Assembly (NCBI RefSeq): GCF_009746565.1
Contig: NZ_WRPN01000002.1
Span: 310,001-374,000, forward strand
Length of the DNA stretch: 64,000 bases
Reading direction: 5' to 3'
Source of the DNA: Mariniflexile maritimum
Lineage (GTDB): Bacteria; Bacteroidota; Bacteroidia; Flavobacteriales; Flavobacteriaceae
Shown: in pieces, positions 2,350-12,069 of the stretch
How positions within the stretch are numbered: the stretch's first letter is position 1
How the letters are laid out: each line of letters begins with the position of its first letter
Notes under the pieces: generated by a model
Databases searched by the model: none
Told to the model about the DNA's origin: nothing
The model's input: the letters and a program-made list of their open reading frames with translations, nothing else
Position numbers and translations under genes: made by a program

Positions 2350-2763
2350 ATGAAAAAGTTATTTGCCCTAAGTTTAATGCTAATTTTTATGTCCTCGTGC
2401 AGTCTTAACGATGATAACGAGGCAAATTACAACTTTGAGATATTGCCAGTTGCAAGTGTGGATATTCCCAGTGAATTCACATTAGGGGAAACATACCCCA
2501 TAACGGTTACCTATTTAAAACCTACATCGTGCCACGTTTTCAAAGAATTTTATTATTCAAAAAACCTAAACGAACGCACGGTGGCACCTATCACATTGGT
2601 ATATCAAAATGATAATTGCCAAACTTTGGAAAATACCACGGAAGAGGCTACCTTTAACTTTATTGTTACCAGCAACGGATCGTACGTTTTTAAGTTTTGG
2701 CAAGGTGAAGACGAAGCTGGTGAAGACCAATATTTAATAATAGAGGTGCCGGTAGTAGAATAA
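2350..2763 (+). CDS. Small lipoprotein upstream of an ECF sigma factor
   Basis: A 137-residue protein with a lipoprotein signal peptide: basic start MKKLF, hydrophobic core, and lipobox MSSC (Cys 17). The residues after the cysteine are acidic (SLNDDNE), resembling the surface-export signal of Bacteroidota lipoproteins, so exposure on the cell surface is possible. The mature part is rich in beta-forming residues and has two further cysteines; no enzyme motif is seen. It ends 20 bases before the sigma factor gene and probably shares its transcript, which suggests a role as sensor partner or target of that regulatory system (inference). The family is not recognised with a defined function. Confidence 0.85.
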   Translation: MKKLFALSLMLIFMSSCSLNDDNEANYNFEILPVASVDIPSEFTLGETYPITVTYLKPTSCHVFKEFYYSKNLNERTVAPITLVYQNDNCQTLENTTEEATFNFIVTSNGSYVFKFWQGEDEAGEDQYLIIEVPVVE

Positions 2764-2783
2764 GTTTAGGTATTAATTAATAC

Positions 2784-3335
2784 GTGTTTAATTTGAGTTT
2801 AGAGCAACTCATAGAAAATTGTAAAAACAATGATACTAAAGCACAAAGTGAATTGTACAAACTCTTTTCGAGTAAACTATTTGCGGTGTGCTTAAAGTAT
2901 TCGCGTAATTATGCCGAAGCTGAAGATAATTTGCAAGACGCGTTTTTAACCATTTTCAAAAAAATGGAGCAGTATAAAAATAAGGGATCTTTTGAAGGTT
3001 GGCTAAAACGCATTACCATAAATACGGTGATGCAGCAATACAGAAGCGAAAAGGTTTTTGATATGGTTAACGAAACCGTGGTTGATGAAGTTGAAATAGA
3101 AATGGACGATGAAGACCTGTCCATGGATTATTTGTTGAAAATTATTCAAGAATTGCCTGATAGGTACCGTTTGGTTTTCAATATGTACGTGCTAGATGGC
3201 TATTCGCACAAAGACATAGCAGATATGCTAAACATCCATATTGGGACTTCAAAATCAAACCTAGCGCGCGCCAGGTTCATTTTGAAACAAACTATTGAAG
3301 ATTACAAAACAACACAACGTTTACAGTCATTATAG
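2784..3335 (+). CDS. ECF-type RNA polymerase sigma factor
   Basis: An extracytoplasmic-function sigma-70 protein of 183 residues that directs RNA polymerase to a specific regulon. Region 2 spans about residues 20-90 (YAEAEDNLQDAFLTIFKKM, then GSFEGWLKRITIN), and region 4 about 115-170 (LPDRYRLVFNMYVLDGYSHK, then a helix-turn-helix IADMLNIHIGTSKSNLARAR). There is no region 1.1 or 3. The start must be GTG at 2784, because an in-frame stop lies one codon before TAC GTG and no ATG follows in the N-terminal region. The stop codon abuts the ATG of the downstream membrane protein without any gap, implying tight translational coupling to its presumed anti-sigma factor. Confidence 0.95.
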   Translation: MFNLSLEQLIENCKNNDTKAQSELYKLFSSKLFAVCLKYSRNYAEAEDNLQDAFLTIFKKMEQYKNKGSFEGWLKRITINTVMQQYRSEKVFDMVNETVVDEVEIEMDDEDLSMDYLLKIIQELPDRYRLVFNMYVLDGYSHKDIADMLNIHIGTSKSNLARARFILKQTIEDYKTTQRLQSL

Positions 3336-4829
3336 ATGAATGATAAAAAACATATAGACAGGTTATTCCAAGAGCGTTTTAAAGATTTTGAAGCGACCCC
3401 CAACGATGCTGTTTGGAAAAATATTGAAGCGGTACTTAACCAAGAAAACAAAAAACGCCGCATCATCCCCATTTGGTGGCGCTATGCAGGTGTGGCCGCA
3501 GCCTTGTTGCTTTTTTTAACCTTGGGCGGTTTGTACATTAAAAACTCCCCAAACCCTCCAACAAATAAGGTGGTAAATACCGACCAAGAAGGGCAAACCC
3601 GAAGCTCAAACCCAACAAATGCCGTTAAAGTTGCGGTTGAGGAAGATGCTGTTATGAAAAAAAATAAGGAAGAAGGTTTTGAAAATAAGCAAGAACAAGT
3701 ACTCCCAAATGCCGTAGAAGCTTCAAACGAACCAGCAATGGCCAATAACCCCGCAACCGCTCCTAAAAACGTAAACAAGCTTAATTGGAAGGAAGCTTCA
3801 ACCCAAAAATCGAATAAATCCTCGAATGGTATAGGCGGAAATACAAACACGGTCGCTTCCCATTCCGAAGAAACATCGAAAGATAACAATTTGAACAATA
3901 CCGCGAACAACAAGGTTGCCTCAACATCTGAAACCAAAAAAGAAGCGCTTCAAACCGGGGAAACCTTAATAGCTTCTGAAAAGGCTAAAGAACTTATCAA
4001 CAACGCCTCAAAAGAAAACACAACGATTGCCAATTCGGAAGAAAAAGATAAGAACGCCCTTACTATTGAAGAAGCCCTAGCCCTTGCAAACGATAAAGTT
4101 GAAAAGGAAAAAAGCATAAACAAGTGGCGTATCGCCCCCAATGCGGCGCCTGTTTATTTTAGCAGTTTGGGCGAAGGTTCCTCCATCGACCCGCAATTTA
4201 ACAGTAATTCCAAAACTGGCGAGGTAAACATGAGCTATGGGGTAAGTGCCAGTTATGCGGTAAACGCTAAACTAAAGGTGCGATCGGGCATTAACAAAGT
4301 CAATTTGGGCTATAACACAAACAATGTGGTGGTGTATCAATCGGTTGGCGTAAGTTCCAGCAAGCGCACTTTGAAAAATTTAGATGCCCGTCCTAGCAGT
4401 AGTGCCAACACTTCCATTATTAGTGGCGAAAGTTTAAACGGTAAATCGGAGCTGTTGGCCACGACCAGCACCTCTATCAATCAAGCTCTGGGCTATATTG
4501 AAGTGCCTTTAGAGCTGCAATACGCCCTTGTAAACAAAAAATTGGGCATTAACCTAATTGGCGGTTTTAGTTCGTTTTTTTTAAGTGATAATAAAATATA
4601 TTCTGAAGCCGAGGGTGGTGGAAAAACCTTTTTGGGTGAAGCAAACAATATAAATAACGTAAGTTATAGCGCCAATTTTGGTGTTGGGTTTAATTACCAA
4701 GTCTCTAAAAAAATAGACTTGAATGTAGAACCCATGTTTAAATATCAAATAAATACGTTTAGCAATACATCTGGCGATTTTTCACCCTATTTTATAGGTG
4801 TTTATACGGGATTCGCCATTAAATTCTAG
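3336..4829 (+). CDS. Probable dual-membrane-spanning anti-sigma factor (Dma-like), inner-membrane anchor plus outer-membrane barrel
   Basis: 497 residues in three parts. Residues 1-46 are hydrophilic and presumably cytoplasmic, ending in KKRRIIPIWW. Residues about 47-68 form one transmembrane helix. Residues about 70-265 are low-complexity, rich in Asn, Lys, Glu, Ala and Thr, and look disordered. Residues about 265-497 alternate in the manner of a small outer-membrane beta-barrel and end in a terminal Phe (FAIKF). There is no signal peptidase site. An inner-membrane anchor with an outer-membrane barrel in one chain is the architecture of the Dma anti-sigma factors described in Bacteroides thetaiotaomicron. 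Position directly behind the ECF sigma gene supports that role. Automatic annotation would likely call it only an outer membrane beta-barrel protein. The anti-sigma function is inferred. Confidence 0.75.
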   Translation: MNDKKHIDRLFQERFKDFEATPNDAVWKNIEAVLNQENKKRRIIPIWWRYAGVAAALLLFLTLGGLYIKNSPNPPTNKVVNTDQEGQTRSSNPTNAVKVAVEEDAVMKKNKEEGFENKQEQVLPNAVEASNEPAMANNPATAPKNVNKLNWKEASTQKSNKSSNGIGGNTNTVASHSEETSKDNNLNNTANNKVASTSETKKEALQTGETLIASEKAKELINNASKENTTIANSEEKDKNALTIEEALALANDKVEKEKSINKWRIAPNAAPVYFSSLGEGSSIDPQFNSNSKTGEVNMSYGVSASYAVNAKLKVRSGINKVNLGYNTNNVVVYQSVGVSSSKRTLKNLDARPSSSANTSIISGESLNGKSELLATTSTSINQALGYIEVPLELQYALVNKKLGINLIGGFSSFFLSDNKIYSEAEGGGKTFLGEANNINNVSYSANFGVGFNYQVSKKIDLNVEPMFKYQINTFSNTSGDFSPYFIGVYTGFAIKF

Positions 4830-4888
4830 GTTTTTGGTTAGATCTAGATGTTGGTTTTCAGTAAGCTCGAAAATCAATATCACTGGAA

Positions 4889-4917
4889 AACTGCTCTCCC
4901 CAGAGCAGTTTTTTTTA
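4889..4917 (+). terminator. Rho-independent terminator of the sigma/anti-sigma operon
   Basis: Stem AAAACTGCTC (4889-4898) pairs with GAGCAGTTTT, loop of four bases, followed by a run of T. It closes the lipoprotein-sigma-barrel operon and lies just before the convergent receptor gene. Confidence 0.9.
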
Positions 4918-4926
4918 TGATTTTTT

Positions 4927-7578
4927 TTAGAATTTAAAATTGATAGAGAGCAAAACGAATCGTTCAATTAAATTATGTTCAAAAATGGAAGTTGAAAAAT
5001 CATTACTATTAATATTCTTATAAACTTTCTTATTAAGTAGATTATTGGCTTTAAATTGATATTCTACTTTATTGCTTTTGGGTTTATAAAAAATAAAGGT
5101 GTCTAAAAACAAGTCTCCAGATATACTTGATTTTAAATCTGGTTTAAAATATTGACTATTTACAGTAAATTGAAAATCATCTTTAATATATTTTATAGAA
5201 AAATCATTTTGAAAAGTTGTAACAGTATTAGAATCACTCAAAGCTGTTTCAAACTTATTAATATTAAATAATAACTTATTGTTAAAATTCATGGCTTTTT
5301 TAAAGCCTGTTCTCATATCTAATTGTCCAAAAAATGTTTTACTTGTATTATCCCTCAAACCAGAGTTATTAACCATATTTTGGTATTCTTGAATAGCATA
5401 AGAACTATTTATATTAAATGTAGATTTTAATACATGTACATACTTTTCAATATCTAAGCCAAAATTCAAGCTTTTATTTTTTGTTACATCTACTATTGAA
5501 GTATAAAAATCTGTATTTTCATTAACATTTAATTTATTTATATAACCATATTTTTTAAAACCATATCTAGTATATAAATTAAACTGGAAAAGATTGTAAA
5601 AATCATTGATTCTATAGCCAAAATTAATTGAGCTATTATTAAATGCATTAAAATTGAAACTATTATTTAATAACGTCCTATTATTAATAAACAGTAATCC
5701 TGAATATGTTTTTGATATATTAGGTATTTGATTAGATATATTATAACTTGAATACAAGTAAGATGTTTTATTCAAATAATAGTTAATTGAAAATGTTGGA
5801 TTAAATAATAAAGTGTTTTCTTGAGATGCGTAATCTAAATTAAAATCATTAATTGTAACATTCAATAGTTCGTTTTTTAAACTTGAAGAAAATTGCCATT
5901 TATTTATGTTATATTTATAATTAACATTAAAATAAATTTTTGATAGTTTATAATAAACATTGTTTGATAAAAATTGATTTTCTATTGTTATGCCGTTAAG
6001 ATTAGAATCCATGAAATTTTCATCATAATGATATCCCAAAGCCAATGTGTATTCTGTTTTTTTAATCTTTGATAAATATTTAGTTTCTAAATTAATTACG
6101 CTCTTTTTTAAATCAATATTTTGATTAAAACTTTCTAGATTAGTAAAAACATTTATATTTTGAGGTACATTATTGGTAGATACGTTAGATAAAAATTGAA
6201 AAACTTGGGTATTATTGAATTTATATGTGTACTCTGCTTTATTGCTAAAAAATAAATCTTCACTTTTCGATAAATTTTCAAATGCAATTCCGTTATTAAA
6301 GCCATTTGAAACACTAGTAATGTTCTGAAAATCTATTTTCCCAATAGCAGTGAATAAAGACTTTTTATTGATTTTATATATAAACTCATAATCGAAAGTG
6401 TTTATGAAAGGGTTTTTAACAAAATTTTCTTGAGTATTTATAGAAATATTATTTTCAAAAGTATAATCTGTATCATTAGTTTCGCTTCTTTTTAATTGAT
6501 CCTTAAATAGACCATAGTTAAATCTTAGAGAAAGTTTGTTATTGAATTTATACAGCGCATTAAAACTTGCAAAATAGTTGCTGTTTATTAAGGTTCTGTT
6601 TTCTGCTAAGACAGAATTAAACGTGTTTTTATTAATTAAATTTGTGCTTCGTTGATTGGCTTCGTTAATCTTTGCTATGTCTAAAGAATTTGACGAAAAA
6701 TTGTAAGGACTTAGGTTTTCGCCAATATTATTATAGCTTAAAGTAGAGAATCCTTTTAATTTTTTTGACACCGAAATTGCATTAGCTCTTAAATACTTTT
6801 TGTCCTTTAAGCCTGCTCCAATTTCTATGTCTCCAGAAATATCGGACATTCCTTTTTTCAATACTAAATTAATAGCAACATCTTGAGACGTTTTTACTCC
6901 TTTCAACAAATAATTCGGATCATAATCTTCTATAGCTTGAACGCTTTCTACTATGTCAGAATCTATATTTTTAGTGCCAATAGTATAGTTATCGTTAAAA
7001 ACATTATCACCATCTAATAACAGTGTAGTAACTTGTTTTCCTTTAAATTTTATAGTGCCATTATCGCTTATGGTAATTCCTGGCAGCTTTTTTAATAAAT
7101 CTTCAACCACCCGTTCACTTCCGTTTTTAAATTGAATAATATCATACTCTGTAGTATCTTTCTTTATCTTTATTGGTGTTTTTTTGGAAGCTACATAAAC
7201 TTCTTCTAATCTCGTTAAACGCTCATCTAATTCGAAATCTAAAGTGTAAGCTGCTACATTTGAATCTGAAACATCAATCTCTTTAATAGTTGGTAAATAA
7301 CTAATAATTGATGTTTCTATAATTAATTTTTTGTGCTTACTTGGCAAATCAACAGTATAAAACCCATCATTGTTTGCTATTGAATAAGCAATTATATTAT
7401 TATCAATAGATTTTACCAAAACACTACAAAATGGTATAGGTTCTGAATTACTTGAAGATTTTATGAAACCTTGTAAATAAATTTGAGAATTACCATAAAT
7501 AGATGTAAAAAAAAATAAAACCATACCAATTGGTATGGATTTATTTTTTTTTAGTAAGTATGTATGAGTTAGTTTCAA
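4927..7578 (-). CDS. TonB-dependent-receptor-like outer membrane protein paired with a GLPGLI protein
   Basis: 883 residues. After a signal peptide ending near YGNSQ comes a carboxypeptidase-regulatory-like beta domain (about 32-115), then a plug-like domain (about 120-245, with GITISDNGTIKFKGKQV and LLLDGDNVFNDN), then a long Tyr/Asn/Phe-rich barrel ending in SINFKF. No TonB box is obvious. The start is probably TTG at 7578, which overlaps the TGA of the upstream GLPGLI gene as TTGA; the only alternative is an internal ATG (codon 19) that would leave a signal peptide without basic residues. The gene is clearly more AT-rich than its neighbours. In this operon it may import, export or cut the small secreted protein encoded first (inference). 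It is a SusC-like relative but has no SusD partner here. Confidence 0.85.
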   Translation of the reverse strand: MKLTHTYLLKKNKSIPIGMVLFFFTSIYGNSQIYLQGFIKSSSNSEPIPFCSVLVKSIDNNIIAYSIANNDGFYTVDLPSKHKKLIIETSIISYLPTIKEIDVSDSNVAAYTLDFELDERLTRLEEVYVASKKTPIKIKKDTTEYDIIQFKNGSERVVEDLLKKLPGITISDNGTIKFKGKQVTTLLLDGDNVFNDNYTIGTKNIDSDIVESVQAIEDYDPNYLLKGVKTSQDVAINLVLKKGMSDISGDIEIGAGLKDKKYLRANAISVSKKLKGFSTLSYNNIGENLSPYNFSSNSLDIAKINEANQRSTNLINKNTFNSVLAENRTLINSNYFASFNALYKFNNKLSLRFNYGLFKDQLKRSETNDTDYTFENNISINTQENFVKNPFINTFDYEFIYKINKKSLFTAIGKIDFQNITSVSNGFNNGIAFENLSKSEDLFFSNKAEYTYKFNNTQVFQFLSNVSTNNVPQNINVFTNLESFNQNIDLKKSVINLETKYLSKIKKTEYTLALGYHYDENFMDSNLNGITIENQFLSNNVYYKLSKIYFNVNYKYNINKWQFSSSLKNELLNVTINDFNLDYASQENTLLFNPTFSINYYLNKTSYLYSSYNISNQIPNISKTYSGLLFINNRTLLNNSFNFNAFNNSSINFGYRINDFYNLFQFNLYTRYGFKKYGYINKLNVNENTDFYTSIVDVTKNKSLNFGLDIEKYVHVLKSTFNINSSYAIQEYQNMVNNSGLRDNTSKTFFGQLDMRTGFKKAMNFNNKLLFNINKFETALSDSNTVTTFQNDFSIKYIKDDFQFTVNSQYFKPDLKSSISGDLFLDTFIFYKPKSNKVEYQFKANNLLNKKVYKNINSNDFSTSIFEHNLIERFVLLSINFKF

Positions 7579-8324
7579 TCAATATAAGTTTCTATTCCTT
7601 CTTTAGGTATTCTCCTAGTTGATCCTCCTGGGCCTCTATAATATAAGAATTCATTGAACTTTTCCTTGTAAAGAACTAAAAAATCATCCCAAGAGATAGC
7701 CTTTTGAATGTTTGTTTGAAATGGGTTTTCTATGTTAGAATCAGCATTTTTAATTTGCAATTTATTAGCTGTAAGTTTAAAAACATCATCAACTGAATAA
7801 ACCTCCAGTATTAACCCAGGCAAACCGTAAAATTTCCAAGGGCCTGTTTGATAAGGAATCTCGATGGCAAAAAAAGCTTCATAATTTCTTCCTCTATAAT
7901 GCGTTGTAGCCTTTTGGCATTTGTATCCTATAACATCTTTAAATTCTGTTTTGACTTCCCAGTTAAAAATATTCATAGAATCCTTAACTAGAAACGGCTT
8001 CATCTCTACAAGTTCAATACTATAAATACTTCTTTCTTCAAAATCTTTGAAAATGAAATCGTTATTTTTGGGCTTTATAGATAAAATTACTCCTTTCTCT
8101 GAATCTTCTTCTTCTTTAAAATTTTCATTTCCTAATAAATATGTCTCATACAAAGAGCCATATTGATTTGCCGATAAAGAAGAGTTAACTACGAATGCAC
8201 TTGGAAGACCTTTCATATGAATTGAATAAGTATAATTTACAAACAAAATATTGTTTGAAATTCCTTTTTCTTGAGCAAGTAAACCAAGAGGTAAAAAAAG
8301 AAGTAATTTTATTTTTTTCTGCAT
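7575..8324 (-). CDS. GLPGLI family protein
   Basis: 249 residues beginning MQKKIKLLLFLPLGLLAQ, a signal peptide cleaved after LAQ. The family-defining motif is present literally as YGLPGLILEVYS near residue 166. The TIGR01200 GLPGLI family is restricted to Bacteroidota, is exported, and has no established biochemical role. I place the start at ATG 8324; a TTG 18 bases upstream is possible but would only add KNLK-type residues before the signal peptide. It begins 10 bases after the stop of the small secreted protein and overlaps the start of the receptor by four bases, so the three genes are one operon. The predicted fold is mostly beta. Confidence 0.93.
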   Translation of the reverse strand: MQKKIKLLLFLPLGLLAQEKGISNNILFVNYTYSIHMKGLPSAFVVNSSLSANQYGSLYETYLLGNENFKEEEDSEKGVILSIKPKNNDFIFKDFEERSIYSIELVEMKPFLVKDSMNIFNWEVKTEFKDVIGYKCQKATTHYRGRNYEAFFAIEIPYQTGPWKFYGLPGLILEVYSVDDVFKLTANKLQIKNADSNIENPFQTNIQKAISWDDFLVLYKEKFNEFLYYRGPGGSTRRIPKEGIETYID

Positions 8325-8334
8325 TTTTAAATTT

Positions 8335-8685
8335 TTAATCAAATATTGAAGGCTCTTCCTCTCCTGGATTAGCTCGTTCTCCTAAAAATTCTTCTAAAGA
8401 GTAAAACACAGCTAATTGCTGACTTTTAATATAAGCATCAGCATCGCCTCTTGCCAAAGCACATGCTATTGCTAGCCCTGAATAAGTTGCACTATAATAA
8501 GTAAAACTAGTTCTATAAACCCCATTATAAGTTACAGTTGCAGTACAAGAATACATTGCTACAGCAGAGACCCCATAATCATTATTTTCATAAAGGTAAA
8601 AATTAGTATTTGAATAGTCAACGCCATTAGTAGCAAATGAAATAGAACTGATCGTTAAAACGAATAAAATCAAAATTTTCTTCAT
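8335..8685 (-). CDS. Small secreted protein, first gene of the GLPGLI operon
   Basis: 116 residues. Residues 1-18 (MKKILILFVLTISSISFA) are a typical signal peptide. The mature part, about 98 residues, is rich in Tyr, Ser, Thr and Ala, has two cysteines (in MYSCTATV and IACALARG) and an acidic tail ending in GEEEPSIFD. No T9SS sorting domain, lipobox or known fold is recognisable. As the promoter-proximal gene, with GLPGLI and receptor genes 10 bases and then four overlapping bases behind it, it is a plausible cargo or ligand of that pair. The protein family is not recognised; that it is coding is supported by the signal peptide and the spacing. Confidence 0.8.
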   Translation of the reverse strand: MKKILILFVLTISSISFATNGVDYSNTNFYLYENNDYGVSAVAMYSCTATVTYNGVYRTSFTYYSATYSGLAIACALARGDADAYIKSQQLAVFYSLEEFLGERANPGEEEPSIFD

Positions 8686-8700
8686 AATTTTTAAAGTTTG

Positions 8701-8723
8701 ATCCTAAAAATTAATTTTAGGAT
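8701..8723. repeat. Perfect inverted repeat just upstream of the small secreted protein gene
   Basis: ATCCTAAAA, a five-base ATTAA loop, then TTTTAGGAT. It lies 15 bases before the start codon at 8685, so it can be either an operator or an RNA hairpin in the leader of the operon. There is no T-run, so it is not a classic terminator. Confidence 0.6.
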
Positions 8724-8741
8724 AGTTAGTAAACAAGTTGT

Positions 8742-8875
8742 TTAAGAAGTCTAAAAATTAAGAAGTCGTTTAAAGAAGTCTTTTACTCTTGTAATTATTA
8801 AGGAAAATAAAAAAACTAGCGCTAGCTACGTTGCAACATGTTTTGCTAAATACTCATTTATAGGAGACTTCTTAA
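8742..8875. repeat. TTAAGAAGTC direct repeats with an inverted copy
   Basis: TTAAGAAGTCT at 8742-8752, TTAAGAAGTC at 8758-8767, a one-base variant TAAAGAAGTCT at 8771-8781, and the exact reverse complement AGACTTCTTAA at 8865-8875. The spacing of about 16 and 13 bases between copies suggests binding sites for a regulator, but an RNA structure (first copy pairing with the last) is equally possible. Confidence 0.55.
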
Positions 8876-9034
8876 TTAACCTAAGAATTTTGTAAGTAAC
8901 AATCCAAATGTAAAAAAAAAAAAATCGTCATTTGCAACTTTTTTTTTGCATTTTTAAGTTATTTGATGTTTTATTAAAAATATTGCTGTGGGTATCCCGT
9001 AAAAATTAAAAAACCGAATTGTTTTCTAGGGATT

Positions 9035-9772
9035 TTATACGCTAAACTTTTCTAGTTGTCCCAAAATAACACTTCTTGCTTCTTCATTTAAAGTCTTTGT
9101 GTCGGCAACTTTTAAATGTTCGGTTTCTAAAAACTTATGGATTTTTACGCGCATACGCCCAGGGCCACCACTAAAAAAAGTATAGGATAGCCGTTTTTTG
9201 TTATCGGCAAACGTTATGGGCACAATAGGGATGTGGTGGTTAATGGCGAGCCTAAAAGCACCATCCTTAAATTCGTCCAATATTATATGTTCTTCGGGCA
9301 CGCCGCCTTCAGGGAAAATACAAATGCTAACACCGGTTTTCAATCGTTTTTGTGCTCTTAAAAAAACGGCCTTTCGGCTTTTTTCCGAGCTTCTATCAAC
9401 CAAAATACAGGTGCGTTTATAGAAAAACCCAAATAAGGGAATGTTGGCAAGCTCTTTTTTTCCAACAAACACAAACGGGTTTTTAACGCTCACCAGCATC
9501 AGCATAATATCTGCCATCGAGGTATGGTTGGCTATAAACAGATAGCTTTTGTTTTTTTCGGGCGTTTGCTTTCGCTTAATTTGCCAATTAAAGCCCATGC
9601 CAATTAATATGAATTTTGCCCAAATACGTGCAATTTTAAAAAAGAAAGGATACCACGATTCTTTTGAAATTGAAATTAAAAGTATGGGGAACAGGATAAG
9701 TATGGGCAATGCTACAAGTATGTAGAACCAAATGCGGTACAAAATCCAGAAAATATATTTAAAAAGTTTCAT
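9035..9772 (-). CDS. plsC: 1-acyl-sn-glycerol-3-phosphate acyltransferase (PlsC family)
   Basis: Transfers an acyl chain to lysophosphatidic acid to give phosphatidic acid at the inner membrane. The 245-residue product has an N-terminal hydrophobic region (residues about 5-35), the catalytic HxxxxD motif as NHTSMAD (His 83, Asp 88), and the substrate motif FPEGG near residue 155, where many homologues have FPEGTR. The open frame continues upstream into trpS territory, but MKLFKYIFW at 9772 is the natural start. It is divergent from trpS. A second PlsC is encoded at 55473-56210; the two share motifs but differ widely, so they are probably not recent duplicates. Confidence 0.92.
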   Translation of the reverse strand: MKLFKYIFWILYRIWFYILVALPILILFPILLISISKESWYPFFFKIARIWAKFILIGMGFNWQIKRKQTPEKNKSYLFIANHTSMADIMLMLVSVKNPFVFVGKKELANIPLFGFFYKRTCILVDRSSEKSRKAVFLRAQKRLKTGVSICIFPEGGVPEEHIILDEFKDGAFRLAINHHIPIVPITFADNKKRLSYTFFSGGPGRMRVKIHKFLETEHLKVADTKTLNEEARSVILGQLEKFSV

Positions 9773-9887
9773 CAAGTTCAAAAATACATAATTGTATTGA
9801 GCAATTCTATTAAAAAAATTACCTTTGCTCGCAGAAAGCATATAGTTTAATTTTAATGAAATTCCCGCTTTGGCGAGAATGAAAAAG

Positions 9888-10856
9888 ATGGCAAGAATAC
9901 TTACAGGCATACAAAGTACGGGAACACCACATTTAGGCAATATTTTAGGGGCGCTTATACCAGCAATTGAAATGGCGAACAACCCCAAAAACGATTCGTT
10001 TTTATTTATTGCGAATTTGCACACCTTAACCCAAATTAAAGATGCTGCGATACTACGGCAAAACACGTATTCGGTGGCAGCTACCTGGTTGGCTTTTGGA
10101 TTGGATATTGAAAAAACGGTGTTTTATAGACAAAGTGATGTGCCACAGGTTACAGAACTGTCGTGGTATTTAAGCTGCTTTTTTCCGTATCAACGCCTAA
10201 CGTTGGCGCACAGTTTTAAGGATAAAGCCGATAGGTTGGAAGATGTAAACGCCGGTTTATTTAACTACCCCATGTTAATGGCTGCCGATATTTTACTGTA
10301 CGATGCTGAAATTGTACCCGTTGGAAAAGACCAATTGCAACACATTGAAATGACCCGTGATGTGGCGGCACGTTTTCATGCAAAAATGGGCGATGTTTTT
10401 GTGTTGCCCGATGGAAGAATTGAAGAACACATCATGCTTATTCCGGGAACGGATGGCGAAAAAATGAGCAAAAGTCGCGATAATACCATCAATATTTTTT
10501 TGGATGATAAAAAGTTGCGCAAGCAAATATTGGGCATTCAAACGGATAGCACACCCCTTGAAGCCCCAAAAGACTGGAGTACGTGCAACTGTTTTGCTAT
10601 TTATAATTTATTAGCAAGCGATGAACAAATTAAAACCATGAAAGCCCATTATGAAAACGGTAATTATGGTTACGGACATGCCAAACAAGCCTTATTTGAG
10701 CTAATAGTTGATAAATTTGCGGTACAGCGCGAGCGCTACCACTATTACATGAACAACCTAGAAGAAGTTGAAAAGGCACTTGCTTTGGGTGCCGAAAAAG
10801 CGAGATTGGTGGCAGATGCTGTTTTAAAGCGCGTTCGAGAGAAGGTTGGGTATTAA
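9888..10856 (+). CDS. trpS: Tryptophan--tRNA ligase
   Basis: Charges tRNA-Trp with tryptophan in the cytoplasm. The 322-residue class I synthetase has the HIGH-type signature TPHLGN (residues 13-18) and KMSKS near residues 191-195. Three in-frame starts are close together: TTG 9870, ATG 9879 (MKKMARIL) and ATG 9888 (MARILTG). I chose 9888 because family members begin directly with the ARILTG strand, and the A/G-rich AAAAAG before it could bind the ribosome. The sequence just upstream (9860-9887) is a repeat-like GC hairpin that supplies the extra ATG, see findings. It is divergent from plsC. Confidence 0.96.
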   Translation: MARILTGIQSTGTPHLGNILGALIPAIEMANNPKNDSFLFIANLHTLTQIKDAAILRQNTYSVAATWLAFGLDIEKTVFYRQSDVPQVTELSWYLSCFFPYQRLTLAHSFKDKADRLEDVNAGLFNYPMLMAADILLYDAEIVPVGKDQLQHIEMTRDVAARFHAKMGDVFVLPDGRIEEHIMLIPGTDGEKMSKSRDNTINIFLDDKKLRKQILGIQTDSTPLEAPKDWSTCNCFAIYNLLASDEQIKTMKAHYENGNYGYGHAKQALFELIVDKFAVQRERYHYYMNNLEEVEKALALGAEKARLVADAVLKRVREKVGY

Positions 10857-10965
10857 TTCCTGCAAAAGCTGGGATCTTGTATTCAAATCTTAAATCAAAA
10901 AATGAAATAATGCGATTTACAAATAATCGTCCATTTCGTAAGATTCCTGCTTTCGCAGAAATTTT
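10857..10965. repeat. Intergenic repeat-like palindromes between trpS and dprA
   Basis: ATTCCTGCAAAAGCTGGGAT (10855-10874) and GATTCCTGCTTTCGCAGAAA (10942-10961) are variants of one small palindromic element (ATTCCTGC, loop, GCAGGAAT). A further variant precedes trpS at 9860-9880. They may act as weak terminators for the convergent trpS and dprA transcripts. Confidence 0.5.
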
Positions 10966-12069
10966 TCAAATAACCTCAAACAGTTTCCCCGGCAACGGGC
11001 GTACAACGCCTTTTAGTTCCATATTCAATAACGCGCTGGCAACCTTAAAAATGGGCATGTTACATTCAATGGCAATAACGTCCAGCAGTTGTTTATCCTT
11101 TTCTTTTAGATAGTTGAAAATTAGCTTTTCGGTCGCGTCCAATTCCACAAATAATTGTTTTTGAATGGTTGGTTTGTTTTCATCTTCCAGTTTCCAGTTC
11201 AAAATATAAGGTACATCTAAAGGCGTGGTAAGCATGTGGGCATTTTGGTGTTTTATTAAATTGTTGCAGCCTGTGCTTTGTAAATCGGTGGTTCTTCCAG
11301 GTACAGCAAACACATCGCGGTTGTAGGAGTTGGCAATATCGGCCGTAACCAAGCTGCCACCTTTTTCGGCCGATTCTATTACAATGGTCGCTTCACTTAA
11401 ACCGGCAATGATGCGATTGCGTTTTAAAAAATTGTTTCTGTCAAAAGTATCGGTACTCCAAAAATCGGTAAAAAAGCCACCGTTTTTTTCCATGGGAACC
11501 ATGTATTTTTTGTGCACCGCCGGGTATATTTGATTGAGCCCGTGCGCCAAACAACCAATGGTTTGTAAATGGTGTTTCATAGCCGCTTTATGGGCCGTAA
11601 TATCGGTGCCGTAAGCAAACCCTGAAACAATAACAGGGTTATAAATGGCTAGTTTTTCAACTAAATCTTCGCAAAACGCCATGCCATTGGTTGTGATTTT
11701 TCTAGTGCCAACAATGCTAATAATGTGCCGTTGTTTTAAATTAATGGTTCCAGATTGGAATAATAGCATGGGGCCATCAATGCAGTGCTTTAATTTTTCG
11801 GGATAATGGCTTTCTTCAAAATATAAAACCTCAATGTTGTTTTCCTTAATAAAAACAAGCTCTTTTTCGGCTTCTTTTATATGGTGCGGTTTAAACAGTT
11901 CGCCCAAGATTACGCTGCCAATACCATCGATTTTTTGCAGGTTTTGCCGTTTTTCTTTTAAAACCGCTTCCGCAGAACCGCAATGGTTAATGAGTCGTTT
12001 TGCCGTAATGTCGCCAATATTGGGCACATGTTGTAGGGCAAGGGTGTAAAGCAAATCGGTTTGGTTCAT
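10966..12069 (-). CDS. dprA: DNA-processing protein DprA
   Basis: DprA binds incoming single-stranded DNA during natural transformation and loads RecA. The 367-residue protein has an N-terminal helix-hairpin-helix region (NIGDITAKRLIN), the Rossmann-like core (HIISIVGTRKITTNGM, SGFAYGTDITAHKAA, RNRIIAGLSEATIVIE, EKGGSLVTADIA, FAVPGR) and a C-terminal winged-helix domain. The usual GID of the SGxAxGID signature is GTD here. The open frame extends upstream, but MNQTDLLYTLAL at 12069 matches the family start. Its presence, with recA in the same window, is consistent with competence but does not prove it. Confidence 0.95.
   Translation of the reverse strand: MNQTDLLYTLALQHVPNIGDITAKRLINHCGSAEAVLKEKRQNLQKIDGIGSVILGELFKPHHIKEAEKELVFIKENNIEVLYFEESHYPEKLKHCIDGPMLLFQSGTINLKQRHIISIVGTRKITTNGMAFCEDLVEKLAIYNPVIVSGFAYGTDITAHKAAMKHHLQTIGCLAHGLNQIYPAVHKKYMVPMEKNGGFFTDFWSTDTFDRNNFLKRNRIIAGLSEATIVIESAEKGGSLVTADIANSYNRDVFAVPGRTTDLQSTGCNNLIKHQNAHMLTTPLDVPYILNWKLEDENKPTIQKQLFVELDATEKLIFNYLKEKDKQLLDVIAIECNMPIFKVASALLNMELKGVVRPLPGKLFEVI

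Follow-up and report, generated by a model that had tools for sequence, protein, structure and literature searches.

What does an outer-membrane barrel do when its gene follows a gene for a GLPGLI protein and another for a very small exported protein? The question is raised by a three-gene operon of Mariniflexile maritimum, which lies in a window of 64,000 nucleotides (the whole stretch of DNA analysed here; positions 310,001 to 374,000 of NZ_WRPN01000002.1, part of contig C12 of genome G000 in our numbering). An earlier note on this DNA had proposed that the first protein is a cargo or ligand processed or transported by the other two, in a dedicated export or uptake unit. Our answer, to which we give just short of an even chance, is that the operon may be a small dedicated outer-membrane export unit, in which the small protein would be the cargo, the GLPGLI protein its periplasmic carrier and the barrel its exporter. 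The parts concerned are as follows.

8335–8685, minus strand: gene of the small exported protein, the proposed cargo (ATG start, 116 amino acids; signal peptide at about residues 1–18 by inspection)
7575–8324, minus strand: GLPGLI gene, proposed to encode a periplasmic carrier or adaptor (ATG at 8324, 249 amino acids; TIGR01200, Porph_ging)
4927–7578, minus strand: outer-membrane barrel gene (TTG start, 883 amino acids; four-base overlap with the GLPGLI gene)
7192–7473, minus strand: CarboxypepD_reg-like N-terminal domain of the barrel protein (residues 36–129)

The open reading frames (ORFs) are packed as the earlier note had described, the GLPGLI ATG sitting ten bases past the stop of the small gene. 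A TTG at 8342 would lengthen the GLPGLI ORF mechanically, and the barrel ORF of two related loci (L047 and L046) likewise has a non-ATG start four bases inside the GLPGLI gene. The GLPGLI label holds, with 134.9 bits for TIGR01200 against a cut-off of 50, and Porph_ging (PF09697) passes its gathering cut-off of 25 with 37 bits. The small protein is, as claimed, rich in Tyr, Ser and Thr (28 of the 97 residues from position 20); it has an acidic tail, and its two cysteines (C47 and C75) form part of a C..G..C pattern whose C, G and C are invariant across ten relatives, and it matches no Pfam or NCBIfam family above cut-off. TonB-receptor-like is a fair description of the barrel, although no clean Pfam assignment supports it, CarbopepD_reg_2 and Plug both falling below their cut-offs. 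Five of ten related barrels pass the CarbopepD_reg_2 cut-off and the best Plug score of the ten is 19.2 bits; a profile built on 15 barrel relatives finds a SusC homologue of the Protein Data Bank (PDB), in its N-terminal domain (E 6.2e-7). None of the four neighbouring proteins and two partners scanned is SusD-like, in agreement with the earlier note.

Is the small gene a regular companion of GLPGLI genes? The window's GLPGLI protein finds matches in 79 of 397 family genomes (E up to 1e-10), and GLPGLI matches occur in 87 of 296 genomes sampled across the phylum (E up to 1e-8). We analysed 101 loci with 109 GLPGLI clusters, which are most of the clusters among the matches listed and were chosen mostly by GLPGLI homology; fractions from these loci do not describe all GLPGLI genes. 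Signal peptides were called by a simple hydrophobicity rule, and the automatic rule for small ORFs overlooks some (L047, L058 and L059); a FastTree tree, in which branches are long and these three are scored 'none', served for rough grouping only. A barrel lies downstream in 86 of the 105 clusters with at least 1,500 nt on that side, and a small exported ORF lies upstream in 56 of the 105 with at least 500 nt there. One locus (L157) was chosen via a small-protein match and another (L067) is the window genome's own second GLPGLI gene, which has a barrel and no small ORF; without these two, 50 of 103 clusters have a small exported ORF whose sequence past position 18 contains two or more cysteines. 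Counted gene by gene within 250 nt, such an ORF precedes 55 of 137 GLPGLI genes, compared with 7 of 219 other genes of these loci and none of 92 barrels (54/135, 7/209 and 0/90 without the two loci), with Fisher p about 2e-19 against other genes and 2e-15 against barrels, the barrel control being weak because the GLPGLI gene usually fills the space before the barrel. The association exceeds chance.

Homology alone is insufficient to trace the small gene. A single-sequence search with the window's protein (E up to 0.01) reaches 12 of the 397 family genomes including its own, and four of these matches (L006, L007, L010 and L012) lie inside very long frames and are probably due to chance. A ten-protein profile does better: beyond its own members it gives six matches with E below 2e-5 in the 397 genomes, and all six, at five loci, are followed by a GLPGLI gene. 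At E up to 0.01 this 10-row profile matches in 211 genomes, and matches below about E 1e-4 in significance, which rest mostly on the signal-peptide part, were left uncounted; a beta-lactamase match (E 0.25) was dismissed as chance, and a tblastn search of plasmids with the small gene was empty. Outside the family, 4 of 20 neighbourhoods have an ORF that passes the rule (L211, L212, L222 and L228), that of L212 having three cysteines and a 263-nt gap, as do 2 of 29 further short loci (L181 and L203). The earlier note had counted small ORFs that are unrelated upstream of other GLPGLI–barrel pairs against the cargo model. Homologues stand directly upstream in the close relatives G141 and G088, with a weaker one in G153, and equivalents in format, with at least two cysteines, in 51 of the 105 clusters, although many are unrelated in sequence.

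What recurs is a format. In 52 modules the putative cargos have 67–137 amino acids, a signal peptide and mostly 2, 4 or 6 cysteines, and they fall into several sequence types. The cysteine number is even in 48 of the 52, a set preselected for at least one cysteine. A, S or G followed by Q occurs within residues 13–34 in 1/52 cargos and in 45/52 of their GLPGLI partners; according to the available passages of PMC5837995, Q follows the cleavage site in over half of the substrates of signal peptidase I in Bacteroidetes. Fourteen cargos, the window's included, were scanned and none scored above a Pfam or NCBIfam cut-off, the best sub-threshold matches of one being AimP_fam (20.8 bits, cut-off 35) and DUF6520 (19.9, cut-off 25.4). 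Judged from these predicted proteins, cargo format is constant and cargo sequence hypervariable.

One alternative is that these are loose neighbours. Variable AT-rich DNA would then be rich in small exported ORFs, which would gather before GLPGLI genes without any shared work. Many of them are indeed unrelated in sequence and the modules are AT-rich in general, as described below, but the scarcity of such ORFs before the other genes of the same loci and the cysteine parity both tell against it, and we give this explanation very little credence.

Several side observations concern the same genes. In three loci (L101, L102 and L157) a single GLPGLI gene is preceded by a tandem of two unlike small exported genes. 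In L181, L183 and L191 the GLPGLI gene follows an exported protein of another type (123–196 amino acids, 1–3 cysteines), perhaps another type of cargo. Small proteins of L109, L120, L128, L137, L155 and L222, and similarly L172, share an SCG motif with further cysteines, and the two scanned (L120 and L137) have a sub-threshold DUF6520 match. In L045 (5989–6759) two GLPGLI copies stand in tandem, the first broken by a stop, and no small ORF precedes them; L046 has a small gene that looks degraded; and in L047 (genome G153), upstream of 6194, the small gene encodes its signal peptide in a different frame at a T-run, through assembly error, decay or slippage. GLPGLI genes themselves often form tandem arrays, for example seven consecutive matches, one with an internal stop (G613:C5:141395-147959).

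Do the small protein and the GLPGLI protein belong together functionally? The clearest evidence comes from two genomes of one genus, in which the module has been replaced in part (L060 in G273 and L065 in G053). Their alignment by blastn gives two blocks, L060 1–5408 at 96.1% and 6905–11723 at 95.2%, separated by 1,496 nt without a match. The cargo ORF of L060 starts at 5352, which puts the left edge on the final base of codon 19, where by inspection the signal peptide ends; the right edge falls at barrel residue 128, the end of the N-terminal domain. Between the edges the mature cargos are at the level of unrelated sequences (33% in a forced global alignment, Z 0.7), the GLPGLI proteins share 30% and the barrel N-terminal domains 35%, and beyond them the barrel bodies share 97%. 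A second module of the same two genomes (L241 and L138), taken as a control, is 96.4% identical over 7,602 bases, cargo included. Further cases are similar: L157 and L060 have the start of the cargo gene and the barrel in common and differ in the middle; the match of L108 with L143 (177–445) ends just past the signal peptide (end of codon 19 at 440) and resumes at 1477, after the GLPGLI stop at 1458; and that of L110 with L119 begins at 1206, within a barrel gene that starts at 1104. Among loci where no cargo was detected, L124/L141 look exchange-like (GLPGLI 36%, barrel 60%), whereas L064/L112 and L112/L153 have no exchange pattern (GLPGLI 90% and 78%, barrel 83% and 81%). A search for more alleles in the genus of L060 found that barrel in only 2 of 16 genomes.

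Read from these alignments, cargo and GLPGLI, sometimes with the periplasmic domain of the barrel, are exchanged together in several loci while the barrel body is kept. Such joint block replacement fits a cargo with its partner better than chance neighbours, and an exchange edge at the signal-peptide end is a further point against loose neighbours. Of the two directions between which the earlier note had left the choice, export is preferred to uptake, since changes of cargo leave the barrel body as it was.

Uptake would mean that the small protein is a secreted, hemophore-like binder of a nutrient and that barrel and GLPGLI import the ligand or the complex. A TonB receptor-like barrel with a SusC-type N-terminal domain would suit this role, and small exported partners of TonB receptors are known (HmuY type). 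Recognition from outside is made unlikely, however, by the L060/L065 pair, in which the cargo is replaced beside a nearly identical barrel body (surface loops were not mapped singly), and no common ligand site is evident in the cargos; we regard uptake as quite improbable.

The same hypervariability and joint replacement of cargo and GLPGLI would also be expected if the small disulfide protein were a toxin against kin and GLPGLI its periplasmic immunity protein, with the barrel as exporter or shared receptor. Exchange would then move the toxin along with its immunity protein, and arrays of GLPGLI genes that lack a cargo gene would serve as banks of immunity; tandem arrays do occur, some without a detected small ORF. 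The GLPGLI motif is almost invariant, which is unusual for immunity proteins, GLPGLI–barrel pairs exist without a detected cargo, and a PADLOC scan of the three window proteins was empty. Related cargos that stand beside unrelated-level GLPGLI proteins, described below, are hardly compatible with immunity. As a sole explanation we consider this one unlikely; it could possibly be combined with export, and might be the purpose of export.

How strict is the pairing? In 52 modules (1,326 pairs, which share modules, so that tests are only indicative), 24 of the 28 pairs that reach a GLPGLI identity of 0.42 have related cargos (Z >4), against 5 of the 23 pairs that reach a barrel-body identity of 0.60. 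Four rows (L047, L049, L058 and L059) were added by hand, and without them the counts are 21/23 and 4/21; the partial rank correlations given below and the global cargo alignments include a spurious overlapping ORF as the cargo of L128. One trio (L152, L159 and L176) combines closely related cargos with mutually unrelated-level GLPGLI proteins, the reverse of joint exchange.

The fold indicated for the GLPGLI protein, in a weak model, is carrier-like. Three residues never vary in 141 GLPGLI proteins, namely a tryptophan and the motif's L and G, while the G and P before these two are kept in 99% and the final I in 94%; the position of the GLPGLI cysteine is not among the columns conserved above 75%, and a catalytic role for it was rejected. 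The window protein scores 27.1 bits against PF22252, the N-terminal domain of PNGase F-II (PNGF-II), just below the gathering cut-off of 27.6, and a profile of 18 GLPGLI proteins matches that domain (E 5.6e-6) independently of any structure model; the molecule of PDB 7zgn itself carries the name GLPGLI family protein. A fold search with a weak model built from three sequences ranks the PNGF-II N-domain (Z 10.5), VioE (10.1) and MucB/RseB (8.7–9.6) highest and places LolA/LolB at about Z 6–7, middling Z values being common with this tool. Scans of the window proteins with Pfam and NCBIfam gave no LolA or RseB family match, and a match of GLPGLI to a staphylococcal toxin chain (E 0.035) was set aside as chance. 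The function of the PNGF-II N-terminal domain is given as unknown in the passages available from PMC9522356.

That RseB and MucB stand among the best fold matches brings in periplasmic regulation, in which the small protein would stay in the cell and control GLPGLI or the barrel as an inhibitor or as the ligand of an RseB-like sensor. Exchange of the periplasmic domain fits periplasmic contacts of this kind, but hypervariability is unexpected for housekeeping control and the model behind the fold matches is weak; regulation seems improbable, to at least the degree that uptake does.

How, then, would the proposed export unit work? The 116-residue protein would pass through Sec, lose its signal peptide and close its two cysteines in the periplasm. 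GLPGLI, as an open half-barrel of the PNGF-II N-domain, RseB or LolA type, would bind it and take it to the periplasmic N-terminal domain of the barrel, which would release the cargo or display it on the surface. What suggests binding, docking and exit is that the parts with a presumed place in the periplasm vary jointly and the barrel body does not; under uptake one would expect the opposite. Recombination in the conserved signal-peptide and barrel sequences would permit swapping, and the channel may be held below cargo and carrier in abundance by a hairpin and T-run that lie early in the barrel gene. Cargo diversity, as far as it can be read from the predicted proteins, fits a molecule under rivalry, for example a bacteriocin-like or surface-recognition protein. 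A more ambitious version is therefore conceivable, an exchangeable-cartridge export and competition system: a constant barrel would serve many hypervariable disulfide mini-protein alleles. Recombination, acting where the signal peptide ends and within the barrel gene, would swap each allele, usually together with its GLPGLI carrier and sometimes also with the periplasmic docking domain that matches it. This version we hold tentatively, and think it somewhat more probably wrong than right.

A number of findings weigh against the export unit and its exchange. About half of the GLPGLI clusters have no such small ORF by the automatic rule, so that GLPGLI and barrel must have a job without cargo; the neighbourhood check that the earlier note had called for therefore gave a partly positive result, enrichment before GLPGLI genes beside absence from half of the clusters. 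Among cargo pairs with Z >10, 17 of 27 have GLPGLI identity of at least 0.42, but 10 of 27 lie at 0.28–0.40, where the background median is 0.30 (L152/L159, L159/L176, L150/L158 and L138/L143 are examples); these ten are also what loose neighbours would produce. Over all 1,326 pairs, the partial rank correlation of cargo with GLPGLI given the barrel is 0.04, a value reached by 108 of 1,000 permutations, while that of cargo with barrel given GLPGLI is 0.12 (0 of 1,000). The N-terminal domain, replaced in the L060/L065/L157 set, is only moderately diverged (62%) in L108/L143 and L110/L119, and the right edge of the exchange therefore varies. L054/L055 lack an exchange pattern, with GLPGLI at 70% and yet the N-terminal domain at 41%, and the window's own clade (L047, L049 and L050) has diverged in the ordinary way, by barrel identities of 56–59%, GLPGLI of 45–58% and cargo of 30–41% over the matched part. 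Structure models are poor for both the small protein (mean predicted local distance difference test, pLDDT, 47) and GLPGLI (pLDDT 48), and the window barrel reaches 27.1 bits for CarbopepD_reg_2 (cut-off 32.2) and 13 for Plug, PF07715 (cut-off 23.9). In Oar of Myxococcus xanthus, a published precedent, the N-terminal extension is dispensable for secretion according to passages of PMC6434023. Taken together, the unrelated-level GLPGLI partners and the non-significant correlation make the pairing a tendency, not a law, whereas joint replacement is real within the exchange blocks; the words 'dedicated' and 'cargo' in the earlier note gain support from the latter.

The DNA in and around the operon holds further features.

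7521–7538, minus strand: hairpin with T-run in the signal-sequence coding part of the barrel gene, a proposed attenuator whose function is inferred
4885–4914, strand unassigned: terminator hairpin between the convergent barrel gene and a neighbouring outer-membrane protein (OMP) gene
8732–8785, minus strand: leader stretch with a 13-nt repeat in three copies
8905–8937, minus strand: candidate Bacteroidota-type promoter (TTG, 22 bases, TACATTTG), followed by a leader of about 220 nt

The hairpin at 7521–7538 has a counterpart at the equal position in L047, L050, L049 and L046 under a looser rule for relatives, with two-sided changes at five pairs and some pairs broken; it was not seen at the corresponding place in L045 or L051. 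A strict scan for a hairpin with a T-run finds it in 3/92 other barrels, 3/219 other genes and 2/137 GLPGLI genes, a rarity that makes it mainly a trait of the window's clade, and its conservation is partly protein-driven, since both arms encode conserved residues. It may lower the amount of barrel relative to cargo and carrier. The terminator at 4885–4914 bounds the block where the earlier note had put a terminator, and the leader is repeat-rich as claimed, if modestly so for such AT-rich DNA. Repeated GACTTCTT-type motifs and predicted pairing in the leader of about 220 nt (8732–8937) could reflect a regulatory RNA or binding sites; an Rfam histone stem-loop match below the gathering score was dismissed as chance. 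The promoter, which we take to be of the Bacteroidota type, is a weak candidate because the pattern matches 18 times in the whole window on both strands.

Has the operon arrived recently? The three-gene block has 26.0% GC and the rest of the window 38.2%, bearing out the AT-rich island of the earlier note, and the lowest-GC sliding window of block size falls almost exactly on the operon. Modules are generally AT-rich, with GC below the flanks in 39/41 with and 32/35 without a detected small gene; low GC, being common to modules with or without cargo, is no proof of recent foreign origin. In two congeners (G134 and G323) recA, a lipoprotein-like gene, an extracytoplasmic function (ECF) sigma factor, the OMP gene, an acyltransferase gene, trpS and dprA are collinear and the module is absent, gaps of 76 and 89 bases separating the matches to the OMP gene and the acyltransferase gene. 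The barrel (E up to 1e-60) is found in one of six genomes of the genus, the window's own. Together, collinear closed sites and presence in a single genome of the genus indicate that the module is accessory and has come or gone as one block. The idea that the window species alone took it up recently was considered and rejected: G141, of a different genus, carries the module at exactly the window's site, the site is closed in two congeners, and the barrel is missing from each of five congeners. In G153 and G088 the module lies away from the acyltransferase gene. Beside the operon, at 2350–4829 of the window, the lipoprotein-like gene, the ECF sigma factor and a 497-residue OMP-domain protein with an N-terminal hydrophobic segment form a set, collinear in two congeners and G141, that resembles a sigma factor paired with an unusual regulator linked to the outer membrane.

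If the proposed export unit is real, the GLPGLI family gains a first function, as partner of a small exported protein, and the Bacteroidota an extra route for small proteins across the outer membrane. The unit would supply secreted mini-proteins that vary and might have antimicrobial activity or act in recognition, and the exchange events would give ready-made allele pairs for specificity tests. Genome comparison suggests that a three-gene unit in part of the Bacteroidota is an unstudied way to place fast-changing small proteins outside the cell. A search that excluded preprints and most subscription papers found no published description of such a unit, and mentions of GLPGLI in the passages available are tables, regulon lists and an annotation remark, which give no function.

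How does the operon compare with known systems? SusC/SusD and RagA/RagB are outer-membrane transporters with which the barrel shares a SusC-type N-terminal domain; the operon differs in having a GLPGLI gene and a small exported gene, and none of its scanned neighbours looks like SusD. Polymorphic toxin/immunity and bacteriocin cassettes combine a constant delivery part with an exchanged effector and its neighbour. The operon too has a constant barrel and an exchanged small protein with a neighbour, but this neighbour keeps a nearly invariant motif and occurs also without a detected effector, and the small protein is not known to be toxic. The GLPGLI protein resembles, by profile and fold match, the bowl-like N-terminal domain of PNGase F-II (4r4x, 4r4z and 7zgn), which is fused to an enzyme whereas the GLPGLI protein of the operon stands alone, and its weak model has the open half-barrel arrangement that LolA/LolB and RseB/MucB would share. 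There is also a likeness to Oar of M. xanthus, a TonB-dependent transporter with a CarboxypepD_reg extension that is required for secretion of PopC, a periplasmic protein substrate (passages of PMC6434023). PopC is a protease and not a variable mini-protein, and those passages name no GLPGLI partner; by analogy with the barrel and its extension, however, protein secretion that depends on such a barrel has a precedent in Oar and PopC.

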